The translations under genes were made by a program, and so were the position numbers. This document shows positions 14,021 through 32,923 of a stretch of DNA of 64,000 nucleotides, one piece after another. The notes under the pieces were generated by a model that searched no databases, was not told where the DNA came from, and saw only the letters and a program-made list of their open reading frames with translations. This DNA comes from an uncultured bacterium (GTDB lineage: Bacteria > Patescibacteriota > Saccharimonadia > Saccharimonadales > Saccharimonadaceae), in assembly GCA_903899655.1 (NCBI GenBank), contig CAIUKF010000013.1, positions 1-64,000 on the forward strand, read 5' to 3'. Each line of letters begins with the position of its first letter. The stretch's first letter is position 1.

Positions 14021-15187
14021 AGGTTAAGTTTCAAAAAGTGTGCTATTTTATCGTCATTTTTTCAGTATTTGTTTCGTCAATTGCTTGTCTGTTTGGCCTT
14101 GCCTGTGGGCTAAAGACCAGGCAATTAAATTCTTTCGTTTTTCTAGATTTAGACCTCGATGCCTTCTAGTTAATTCACGCAGTACGCCATTGACTGACTC
14201 AATTAAGTTTGACGTTCTAGGCACGCTTGAGTTATCTAGGTATGTAAATATTTCATCTCTTATGTATGAGTTATTTATGACCGAAAAAGCAGAAAGATAT
14301 TCTCTTGGAATGCGTCGAGAGTTCTCGTACGTATCCGTCTTTGAACTCATGGATGTAATAGCGACTTCATATCTTTTTAAATAATCCTGCCACCGTCGCT
14401 CCCACAATAGCCTTTTAGTTGCATCATCTACACTAAACAACGATGCGACTAATCTTTTTAACTCCTTGGCTATCTCTGTTTTTGGTGAAATGCTCAGATC
14501 TTTATTCATGTTGCCCATGAAGTGAGCTAGGCAGCGCTGTTGTTTCGTATTGGGCCAGTATCTTGAACAGGCGTTGGTTATACCGGGGTGCCCGTCACTG
14601 ACAAGATAGTCTGGCCTAAACTTATGTGATTTCATTTCTTTAATGAACTTTTTCCATATGCCCATATTTTCTATGTCATCATAAAATTGCCAATAGATTG
14701 GCTTATGGGTTTCACAATCTATTGCCCATAAAAGAACGCATTTATCCTTTTTGAAGCCATCTTTATGTCGGTTGCGCTTGATGCTTGGGTAGGACAGATA
14801 AAAGCCATCTACGGCAATTATCTTGGCTTTAGTGGCCCTATACAGTGGGGCTGGCCTAACAGCCATTAGTGGTGCAAACTTTCGCCATAACGTCGTCCGG
14901 CTAGATTGATTAATTTCCGACAAAAAACTCTCTAGATATACTTTGGGCTAAGTAATCCTTAAAAAGACTCAACACAACCTTCAAATGTGAGGCTGGTCTT
15001 TTATTTGTTTTGCTCAAATTACAATAAATACACCTGTACCGAACTGTACCTTTTTTAGTAGTTCCATTCTTTCTAAAACAATGATTACATTAGCTAAATC
15101 TAACAGAAATTATTTTTAAAAATAATTATTTACTAAATAACCTCTGTTAAATAGGCTAAAAATAGCACACTTTTTGAAACTTAAGCC
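14021..15187 (-). mobile_element. IS256-like insertion sequence (1167 bp)
   Basis: The ends are near-perfect inverted repeats of about 30 bp sharing TTAAGTTTCAAAAAGTGTGC. A 9-bp direct repeat GGACTGTCC flanks both sides (14012-14020 and 15188-15196), fitting the 8-9-bp duplications of the IS256 family. It contains one transposase gene. The insertion split a palindromic 28-bp sequence that exists intact next door at 15209-15236. Confidence 0.85.
14054..15089 (-). pseudogene. Mutator/IS256-group (IS1249-like) transposase with a frame disruption
   Basis: The catalytic frame (14054-14923) has the DDE pattern: AVDGFYL, VSDGHPGI followed by QRCLAHF, and NLIESVNGVLREL. Upstream, another frame encodes a zinc-ribbon start (CNHCFRKNGTTKKG...YRCIYC) and joins at a T6 run near 14923; removing one T would give REFLSEINQS and one continuous protein. 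Either this copy carries an inactivating +1 frameshift or it relies on slippage at the T-run. No clear start codon precedes the zinc ribbon, which favours decay. Confidence 0.7.
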
Positions 15188-15369: not shown

Positions 15370-15410
15370 AAATTTATTACAATTTTGTTGTAAATAACAT
15401 AATGCTAGTG

Positions 15411-15427
15411 CTATACTAAAAGCTATG
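15411..15427 (+). promoter_or_regulatory. -10 box and out-of-frame ATG ahead of the CT tract
   Basis: TATACT at about 15413 is followed by a short spacer and ATG at 15425-15427, the same leaderless arrangement used by many genes here. Reading from this ATG through the present CT tract reaches a stop at 15473-15475. Confidence 0.5.
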
Positions 15428-15434
15428 AAAAAGC

Positions 15435-16520
15435 GTGACTCATTACTCTCTCTCTCTCTCTCTCTCTCTCGATAAGCCAATAACTTTTAATCTTGAAAAT
15501 AACCAAGTTGAAAAGTCACAAAAAATGCATGGTTTTACTATTGTTGAGCTTTTGGTTGTGATTGTAGTTATCGGCATTTTGGCGGCGATTACAATTGTTT
15601 CATATACAGGCATAACCCAAAAAGCTAATTTAGCCGCCATGCAATCAGACTTATCAAGTATCTCTCAACGACTTAAAATGTATTACACTTTGTATAGTTC
15701 TTATCCAACAGCTCTTGATGCTAACAACTGTCCAACTGCACCAACAGCTGATACTAACTACTGTATCAAGCTTACTAGTAACAATACCCTAAGCTACAAT
15801 GGTTCAGCTAGTCAATTCAGTGCCGTTGAAGCTAATAGTGCTGGGACTACCTATTATAAAGTAACTGATAATTCTGCACCTACAGCTACGACTAGCTTGG
15901 ATAGTGGATTGGTAGCGTATTACAATTTCAATAATGACACTGGTACTACGGCAGTTGATTCCAGCGGAAATGGATATAACGGTACTATATCAGCCGCAGC
16001 AACTCACATTAGCGATGGGCTAGGACAAGGTATTGATTTTAATGCTAATGATGCGTATGTTTTGCTCCCTGTTATACAAAGTTTTACGAATAACCTACAA
16101 GGATCCTGTTCGTTTTGGTTTAAATCAACTTCAAATCAATCGCCAAATAAAAACATTTTTGCATTTGCATCTAGTAGGCTTGATATCAATTTCGCAACTA
16201 GTACTAAGCAAATATTTGTTTGGTTTTGGGATTCAGCCGGCAATAATCATAACGTGTGGATATCTCCAGACGCAAGTTATATTAACGGCAGTTGGCATCA
16301 AATCGTGGTAAGTAAATCATCCACGAGAATTAATGTGTATTTAGATAATGTTAACGTGGGCGGTTATGATACTGTACTAAAAACAAATAACGATGGCACC
16401 ATCAGTGTCATAGGTAATGGTGGTGACGGTTTTAGGGGAAGTTTTGATGATTTACGAGTATATAATCGTGGACTATCTACTGCCGAAGTTAATGCATTGT
16501 ATGCTGCTGGCACACCATAA
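15435..16520 (+). CDS. Prepilin-like protein with LamG (concanavalin-type) domain, start possibly phase-variable
   Basis: The frame open from 15435 encodes 361 residues. A class III prepilin signal sits at HGFTIVELLVVIVVIGILAA, with predicted cleavage between Gly and Phe near residue 33 and the usual Glu at +5. A pilin-like helix follows, then from residue 155 a LamG/concanavalin-like domain (GLVAYYNFNNDTGTTAVDSSG; DDLRVYNRGLSTAEVNALY). Likely a minor pilin or pseudopilin with a glycan- or protein-binding head. The best upstream ATG (15425) is one frame off because of a (CT)12 tract; one more CT unit would fuse it in frame. An internal ATG at 15525 could also start a short-leader prepilin. 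The gene at 31934 has the same design. Confidence 0.75.
   Translation: MTHYSLSLSLSLDKPITFNLENNQVEKSQKMHGFTIVELLVVIVVIGILAAITIVSYTGITQKANLAAMQSDLSSISQRLKMYYTLYSSYPTALDANNCPTAPTADTNYCIKLTSNNTLSYNGSASQFSAVEANSAGTTYYKVTDNSAPTATTSLDSGLVAYYNFNNDTGTTAVDSSGNGYNGTISAAATHISDGLGQGIDFNANDAYVLLPVIQSFTNNLQGSCSFWFKSTSNQSPNKNIFAFASSRLDINFATSTKQIFVWFWDSAGNNHNVWISPDASYINGSWHQIVVSKSSTRINVYLDNVNVGGYDTVLKTNNDGTISVIGNGGDGFRGSFDDLRVYNRGLSTAEVNALYAAGTP
15446..15470 (+). repeat. (CT)12 dinucleotide tract inside the 5' coding region
   Basis: 25 bases of alternating CT/TC, starting 7 codons after the leaderless ATG. In the current length the ATG frame is closed. A change of +1 or -2 units restores the pilin frame. Confidence 0.9.
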
Positions 16521-31933: not shown

Positions 31934-32923
31934 CTATACTCCGAAACGATTTCGAGTATCTGTAAAGTTTTGCTGAATTTCGGCCGGATTAAGAACACGG
32001 TTATATATTCTGAAATCTTGCAATAAACCTTTATATCCCCAACCACCAGTAAAATAATTATTTAGATATAATGAAGTCCAACCACTTAAGTTAACACCAG
32101 TTGCGACATATTGATGCCAAACGCCGTTTCTGGTATCTGTCGTCGAAGCAACACCGTCTTGGTAAGTCAAGATTGATAATCCAGCATTGCCGTGATAAAA
32201 AGCACCTGATGATATTGCCATTAAAAAGTAAGCTGTACTTTGGCCGCCCAAAATTAACCATTGAGTACTATCGACTGATTTTCTCCAAAATGTAACCGAG
32301 CAGTTTGTTAGACTAGCGCGGCTAACATTAGATAAATTTACATACCCTGTTGTGCCATCAAAGGTGAAGGCTCCGTGGTCGCCAGCCGTATAGGTTACGC
32401 CACCGACCAGTGCATTCGTGGTTGCATTGCCACTTAAATCAGTCCATATCGTGCCAGATCCTGGGTATGATGCAGTGTTTTCAGCGTCCAGATACAATGC
32501 CAAACCATAATTGATACAATCACCAGATACTGATGTGCTGTCATTAGTGATTTTATAACTTGTTGTTCCTTTGGTTGCCGAAACGCAAAATGTCTGAGGG
32601 CTAACATTATTGTTAAACCCGTATCTTAAAGTCGTACCTGGACTAACTGATACTCCTTTATTGCCATTCGCCGCAGCTAACGATACTGGATACCCACTAC
32701 TAATAATCTGATCTAACTTTAATACATTTGAAACACTAGTTAAATCTGATTGTAGCGAAGCAATTGTAGCGCGCTGAGAAATGCCGTTATAGCTGACTAA
32801 TGTTACAGCAGCCAAGATACCGATGACGACTACAACAACTAATAGTTCGACAATAGTAAAACCATTCGACTCTCTACGCTCTCTCATGGCCTGGCGACCA
32901 CTATCTTCAGCACCGATATACAT
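31934..32923 (-). CDS. Prepilin-like protein with LamG domain (second copy)
   Basis: 329 residues. A prepilin signal follows a 20-residue basic/acidic leader: NGFTIVELLVVVVVIGILAA, with cleavage expected between Gly and Phe. A short pilin region with QRATIASLQSDLTSVS parallels the first copy (QKANLAAMQSDLSSIS). From about residue 140 a LamG-like domain runs to DFRIYNRVLNPAEIQQNF. TATACT is 6 bases before the ATG. Unlike the gene at 15435 there is no dinucleotide tract. Likely a minor pilin adhesin. Confidence 0.8.
   Translation of the reverse strand: MYIGAEDSGRQAMRERRESNGFTIVELLVVVVVIGILAAVTLVSYNGISQRATIASLQSDLTSVSNVLKLDQIISSGYPVSLAAANGNKGVSVSPGTTLRYGFNNNVSPQTFCVSATKGTTSYKITNDSTSVSGDCINYGLALYLDAENTASYPGSGTIWTDLSGNATTNALVGGVTYTAGDHGAFTFDGTTGYVNLSNVSRASLTNCSVTFWRKSVDSTQWLILGGQSTAYFLMAISSGAFYHGNAGLSILTYQDGVASTTDTRNGVWHQYVATGVNLSGWTSLYLNNYFTGGWGYKGLLQDFRIYNRVLNPAEIQQNFTDTRNRFGV

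Follow-up and report, generated by a model that had tools for sequence, protein, structure and literature searches.

The pilin gene at positions 15,425 to 16,520 (+) of the window, the 64,000-nucleotide stretch of DNA analysed here, probably belongs to a set of eight modular type IV pilin genes in a Saccharibacterium that are phase-variable ('contingency' genes). We put the probability of this explanation as a whole, with slipped-strand mispairing in a CT tract as the switch in all eight genes, at about 0.87. The argument starts from the tract itself and from paralogues that repeat its layout, and it is strengthened by two relatives whose copies of one such gene differ by two CT units.

A CT tract at the start of a lectin pilin gene

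An extended -10 element, TGCTATACT, lies at 15,409 to 15,417 (+) and contains TATACT at 15,412 to 15,417. Seven nucleotides separate this box from the ATG at 15,425, which is the spacing of a leaderless-type start. The start codon opens a stretch of seven codons (MKKRDSL; ATG AAA AAG CGT GAC TCA TTA; 15,425 to 15,445, +) that runs into a perfect (CT)12C tract of 25 nt at 15,446 to 15,470 (+), the proposed slipped-strand switch. At this length the ATG frame terminates at a TAA at 15,473 to 15,475 and its product is a 16-aa peptide, MKKRDSLLSLSLSLSR. The window gene is at present out of frame from this ATG. Frame arithmetic turns it ON at +1, -2 or +4 CT units. The preliminary description had given the same ATG, the seven codons, the 25 nt of CT, the TATACT just upstream and the stop at 15,473, all of which a recount returned unchanged. 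It was also right that one extra CT links the ATG to the prepilin-LamG frame. The tract is not there by chance. None of 100 shuffles of the window contains even 14 nt of CT, and the longest dinucleotide run in five simulated genomes (same size, third-order Markov) is 13 nt. The window gene has a repeat beyond chance length in its 5' coding region, a change of one unit shifts the frame, and the gene downstream is intact.

From the tract to the cleavage site the leader reads DKPITFNLENNQVEKSQKMHG (15,471 to 15,533, +), and a relative has a similar leader, KPLTFKLENKQLNKPQNSHG (G023/L172). The mature type IV pilin follows at 15,534 to 16,520 (+), with the FTIVELLVVIVVIGILAAI helix, a pilin domain, a C-terminal LamG/ConA-like lectin domain and the stop. 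Pfam bears out the earlier reading of this frame as a prepilin-LamG protein, with N_methyl at 2.6e-6 (27.2 bits, cut-off 21.2) and Laminin_G_3 at 5.3e-17 (62.8 bits, cut-off 27.6). The Pfam scan found only pilin and LamG families above cut-off, and the protein does not belong with the Hop adhesins. A G before FTIVELLVVIVVIGILAAI, N_methyl above its cut-off and a prepilin peptidase in the genome, which also encodes pilus ATPases, identify it as a type IV (class III) prepilin. In the AlphaFold model a long helix forms the N terminus and a jelly roll the C terminus (mean pLDDT 61.8; mostly 60-90 in the C-terminal part). The Laminin_G_3 profile and this predicted fold point to a LamG/ConA-like lectin. 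Foldseek returns many ConA-like domain matches (best E about 3e-11), and a match of the model to this generic lectin fold tells nothing on a specific ligand.

A second pilin in the window (31,937 to 32,923, -) serves as an internal control. It has no CT tract, an in-frame ATG and a TATACT 6 nt upstream. Directly upstream of the CT-pilin there is a transposase-like ORF, recognized by eye (14,054 to 14,923, -), perhaps tied to the dispersed position of the pilin.

Eight pilins with one layout

The source genome is a Saccharibacterium of 924,537 bp in 18 contigs, 97% complete, and its stretches were combined for the repeat census and gene scans. A protein search finds 19 pilins, eight with a CT tract and 11 without. 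A CT-repeat search reaches the same eight genes, which hold every CT run of six or more units in the genome. The whole-genome census lists nine dinucleotide repeats of at least 11 nt, namely the eight CT tracts and one 11-nt AC run; at 12 nt or more only the eight tracts are left. This census rules out the tracts as a chance or low-complexity artefact. Homopolymers of at least 9 nt are a separate curiosity of these 924 kb: there are none, with about 99 expected under a third-order Markov model.

The eight genes share their architecture. Every tract begins 14-21 nt 3' of the prepilin ATG, with a -10-like box 6-7 nt 5' of that ATG in 8/8. The ATG is followed by AAA or CAA, and CT is on the coding strand, in all eight. 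The tract lengths are 25 (window), 31, 17, 23, 35, 14, 17 and 27 nt, and they differ among paralogues despite near-identical flanks. The 14-nt tract is imperfect, with TT and then more CT; the one tract with an interrupting TT is at C10:96536. Six of the eight are arranged in tandem at C10:94-102 kb; the C12 gene and the window gene stand apart. The array (C10:90.8-104.7 kb; L020) is flanked by a large serine recombinase, a winged-helix (TrmB-like) ORF and a PLD-like ORF. The TrmB-like ORF resembles the replication-relaxation ORF of the mobile element of Ca. Saccharibacteria 49-20 described below, and the flanking set is the one found at that element's ends. An AAA_21 ATPase with a small partner, possibly a defence pair, also lies inside this region.

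Only one of the eight is in frame from its ATG. This is the gene at C10:96,640-97,701, whose 35-nt tract gives a 353-aa prepilin with MKKRDILLSLSLSLSLSLSDNHASKIKSHRSG before the cleavage site and FTIVELL after it. In the seven OFF genes, the window gene included, the ATG frame closes after 13-32 aa. The distribution over the three frames (1/5/2) does not depart significantly from random among the eight genes. A strict control that allows one ON gene at a time was considered and dropped, since at most one ON in eight is within random expectation (about 0.2, binomial). The pilins that lack a tract have an in-frame ATG in 11/11, several at the same leaderless spacing, and the second window pilin is among them.

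The OFF genes are intact over 318-552 aa, and the pilin frame is open across leader and tract in 8/8. Between the window gene and the C10:100 kb gene, both OFF, the N-terminal 120 aa give a dN of 0.09 and a dS of about 2, which is saturated. OFF paralogue pairs have the pilin part under strong purifying selection and a lectin part that changes faster. Genes that were permanently silent would decay; these are maintained.

Which codon starts translation

Among 795 ORFs, a -10-like hexamer precedes the candidate ATG at 6 nt in 103 cases and at 7 nt in 66, and other spacings mostly have about 30. The ATGs of the CT-pilins stand at the enriched distance of 6-7 nt. This genome-wide enrichment backs the leaderless start at 15,425 that the preliminary description had assumed; the spacing supports such initiation without proving it. 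Several relatives in the genus show no leaderless -10 at the ATG. In some relatives (L069, L071, L173/L179, L102) the tract comes after two or more ATGs that differ in frame, which could permit more than two expression levels. With such ATGs (L069, L071, L173, L102) two of the three tract lengths might yield product, at different strengths.

Translation could instead begin at a GTG at 15,435 to 15,437 (+), a codon absent from the preliminary description, as the sole start or as a weak second one. With the tract as long as it is now, this codon reads in the pilin frame and opens an ORF of 361 aa. The window gene would then be ON now, and either the ON length is a different one or there are three levels, with ATG strong, GTG weak and the third off. 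The GTG shares the pilin frame in the window gene, in C10:101849, in C10:100639 and in G023:C7, and the paired ATGs of L069, L071 and L173/L179 suggest that more than one frame is usable. However, two of the eight genes lack the GTG and three others have it outside the pilin frame. No Shine-Dalgarno sequence lies upstream of GTG 15,435, and the -10 box is at leaderless distance from the ATG and not from the GTG. We consider this start unlikely, while granting that it deserves attention.

The other candidate is the ATG at 15,525 to 15,527 (+), which would leave the tract in an untranslated leader where its length is irrelevant to the protein. A start here had been named in the preliminary description as the finding that would speak against a switch. 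The C12 gene also has an in-frame ATG 3' of its tract, but in 6/8 CT-pilins there is no ATG, GTG or TTG in frame between the tract and GFTIVELL. In those six genes protein can come only from an upstream start, through the tract. The ATG is not conserved either: the gene of the closest relative has AGT (S) in its place, so that SHG stands where the window has MHG, in an otherwise similar leader. A pilin frame that is open through leader and tract in every one of the eight genes also speaks against it. The 3-aa leader MHG is shorter than a usual prepilin leader. We reject the start at 15,525 on the missing start codons of the six paralogues, and find it barely credible. The ATG at 15,425 is the start that we adopt below.

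A tract difference on a mobile element

Counting CT units in other assemblies was proposed in the preliminary description, and one pair of relatives allows it for a gene of their own. Ca. Saccharibacteria 49-20 (G140) and 47-87 (G129) belong to the same family as the source genome. They have in common a block of 20,292 bp at 99.87% identity (G140:C1:133625-153916 and the matching G129 stretch; L188-L191), and its surroundings are otherwise non-matching in the stretches compared. This element carries a serine recombinase, a replication-relaxation protein, a TraG-type ATPase, a reverse transcriptase, bAvd and a CT-pilin with an FGE-type domain. The sole indel between the two copies is 4 nt in the CT tract, 28 against 24 nt, between essentially identical flanks. 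It makes the ORF from the same GTG 370 aa long (ON) in one and 21 aa (OFF) in the other. The other internal difference is a cluster of 13 mismatches, confined to 98 nt in a variable region (VR) at the 3' end of that pilin gene, and ten further mismatches lie at the extreme left edge of the element. Since the copies differ internally only at the tract and the VR, both of these changed while the surrounding 20 kb did not. The 4-nt difference is the strongest single item for switching. Together with the common layout of the eight paralogues, this frame-changing difference of two CT units in an orthologous pair upholds the earlier suggestion that the window gene is likely phase-variable. It must be noted that the start of the 49-20/47-87 gene is less certain, being a GTG 40 nt 5' of the tract with no leaderless -10. 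Both genomes are from one reactor series, and the difference could be transfer and not switching in place.

One could also hold that the seven out-of-frame genes are pseudogenes or assembly errors and that (LS)n is a static part of the leader. The data are assembled consensus only, and the TT in the tract at C10:96536 fits this reading. A random error is hard to reconcile with a 4-nt difference that is the only indel in 20.3 kb, and a static leader is hard to reconcile with lengths that vary among paralogues with near-identical flanks. Purifying selection on the pilin part and intact frames of 318-552 aa lead us to reject the pseudogene reading. Overall we regard this alternative as very improbable. 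We judge no better the idea that the tract works at the DNA or RNA level, through modulation of transcription or translational frameshifting on the CT run, and not through heritable change of length. It can draw on the constant strand of the CT and on the theoretical possibility that a run of two-base units is slippery. Tract length varies by frame-changing units, however, and a known frameshift signal of this kind was not identified. Slipped-strand switching accounts for the tracts better than either.

Retroelements at some of the pilins

In the 49-20/47-87 pilin, VR and template repeat differ almost only at adenines (10/10 in several 90-nt windows). Such A-specific mismatches are the sequence signature of a diversity-generating retroelement (DGR). 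The only reverse transcriptase of the source genome adjoins the C12 CT-pilin, which has a Fib_succ_major domain (G000:C12:364-3709; L021). This locus also has an Avd-like ORF, and its template repeat and VR differ only at A (7/7). The C12 and the 49-20/47-87 CT-pilins can both be classed as DGR targets, and each would combine an ON/OFF switch and retroelement diversification on one gene. The window gene is not a DGR target, the one reverse transcriptase of its genome being at C12. A third co-occurrence is found in BP9.bin16 (L176), where a CT-pilin stands with Avd-like and RT-like ORFs, identified by eye.

Distribution among relatives

The ATG-CT pattern is present in 5/28 genomes of the genus and in 17/394 sampled genomes of the family (10/61 genera), with several matches that are not pilins. 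A stricter ATG-CT-pilin pattern matches five contigs in a collection of 84,980 genomes. Two are from named Saccharibacteria and three are MAGs that by sequence are the genus members G023, G022 and G010. In the class it is found in 4/393 genomes. These counts are a minimum because the pattern is strict. CT matches with no pilin downstream were left out (L094-L096, L100, L101, L103-L105, L113), and L075 and L176, which are the same gene, were counted once. A viral origin was also considered and discarded, as pattern scans of IMG/VR gave no match.

Two further arrangements were seen in the family. In other genera, ATG-(CT)n stands ahead of non-pilin membrane or secreted proteins (L106 and L111 in G079, L102 in G285), which implies that the switch may not be confined to pilins. 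At L100, L103 and L104 (G168, G047, G099) opposite-strand AG runs lie between TTGACA-like and TATTAT/TATTCT-like boxes. They may be repeats in a promoter spacer, which would be a second kind of phase variation.

Proposed mechanism

The scenario that we favour is as follows. Transcription would begin at or beside the ATG, in leaderless fashion, and the ribosome would reach (CT)n after seven codons (about five to seven in the paralogues), still within the prepilin leader. Slipped-strand mispairing during replication would add or remove CT units. One length in three would join the ATG to the pilin, and prepilin peptidase would then cut between G and F, which in the one ON gene would remove a leader of about 32 aa. 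At the remaining lengths the product would end within about 13-32 aa, which is OFF. With MutS and MutL absent, slips would stay uncorrected, and dinucleotide slippage is expected to increase when mismatch repair is lost. Neither MutS nor MutL was found in the source genome, and MutS was found in 0/28 genomes of the genus, in a search whose positive controls succeeded in 11/14 cases. MutS and MutL are among the families common to two other CPR phyla and not to Saccharibacteria (PMC8406219).

Length variation is seen between relatives, and we infer the rate and reversibility of switching. For the window genome we also infer switching within one population, from a consensus assembly, where long CT tracts are open to miscalling. 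Given independent slippage of the eight genes, which we suppose, a clone would contain cells that show different sets of lectin-bearing pilins. This would be bet-hedging of host recognition, a purpose suggested by the LamG domains and by the part that pili play when cultured Saccharibacteria bind their hosts. Some CT-pilins are further diversified by retroelements, and several lie on or beside serine-recombinase mobile elements. We lean, with some reserve, towards a still broader picture, a pilin 'phasome'. In it up to eight pilins per genome, most of them lectin-bearing, are independently CT-switched, some are DGR-hypermutated, and mobile elements spread them; host recognition would thereby be randomised at two levels, display and binding.

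A set of contingency pilins would offer a way to study how ultrasmall epibionts find their hosts, stay with them and exchange them for others. Existing metagenome reads give the tract lengths directly, and these can be compared with the host in the sample. Mechanical gene calls start such genes at a GTG, a TTG or an internal ATG, which would hide the switch.

Comparison with known systems

The preliminary description knew of no account of slipped-strand variation of a surface adhesin in CPR epibionts. The open-licence PMC literature agrees, as we found in it no report of phase variation or slipped-strand mispairing in Saccharibacteria, Patescibacteria or the candidate phyla radiation. The nearest case in the radiation is the hypervariable 9-mer repeat of PTD in Gracilibacterium BD1-5 (PMC6851277). 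It is also repeat-based variation in a CPR surface protein, for which slippage was considered, but its 9-mers are in frame and there is no ON/OFF switching. TM7x, of the Saccharibacteria, has minor pilins with extra C-terminal domains, and its pilX2 is needed for full host binding (PMC12206443). The likeness is close, since this is the same group, with beta-rich C-terminal domains on pilins and pili that bind a bacterial host; that paper does not use the term phase variation. Streptococcus sanguinis has modular type IV pilins, PilB (vWA) and PilC (ConA-like lectin), in which an adhesion or lectin module is likewise grafted on a pilin for display on the pilus. Repeat-driven switching is not part of the description of PilB and PilC as far as we could follow it in that source (PMC8179133). 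Our C12 and 49-20/47-87 CT-pilins have the Avd, reverse transcriptase and A-specific template repeat of known DGRs. Those vary sequence, and the literature searched gave no case of a repeat ON/OFF switch added to such a target gene.

Neisseria switches opa by CTTCT repeats and pilC by poly-G, while its dinucleotide tracts were found not to vary (PMC5953494). As here, the paralogous surface genes are dispersed and have a coding repeat each, and a repeat switches pilus-associated adhesion. The Neisseria repeats are pentamers or homopolymers, however, and Opa and PilC are not pilins. The closest match in mechanism is found in the Hop adhesins of Helicobacter pylori (babA, sabA, oipA/hopH, hopZ), whose coding regions have CT dinucleotide repeats at the 5' end (PMC3960876; PMC10564699). 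There too (CT)n stands at the gene start, slipped strands turn the gene ON or OFF, and several adhesin genes each have their own repeat. The likeness is in mechanism and not in sequence. Here the genes encode type IV prepilins of a Saccharibacterium, mostly with C-terminal lectin domains and with leaderless-type promoters, and several of them are mobile-element cargo or retroelement targets. If our reading is true, the strategy of H. pylori has arisen convergently in an organism that has no mismatch repair and probably lives on bacteria, not animals. The switch mechanism is one already known from H. pylori; its presence in this group of bacteria, its pilin targets and its pairing with DGRs appear to be new.
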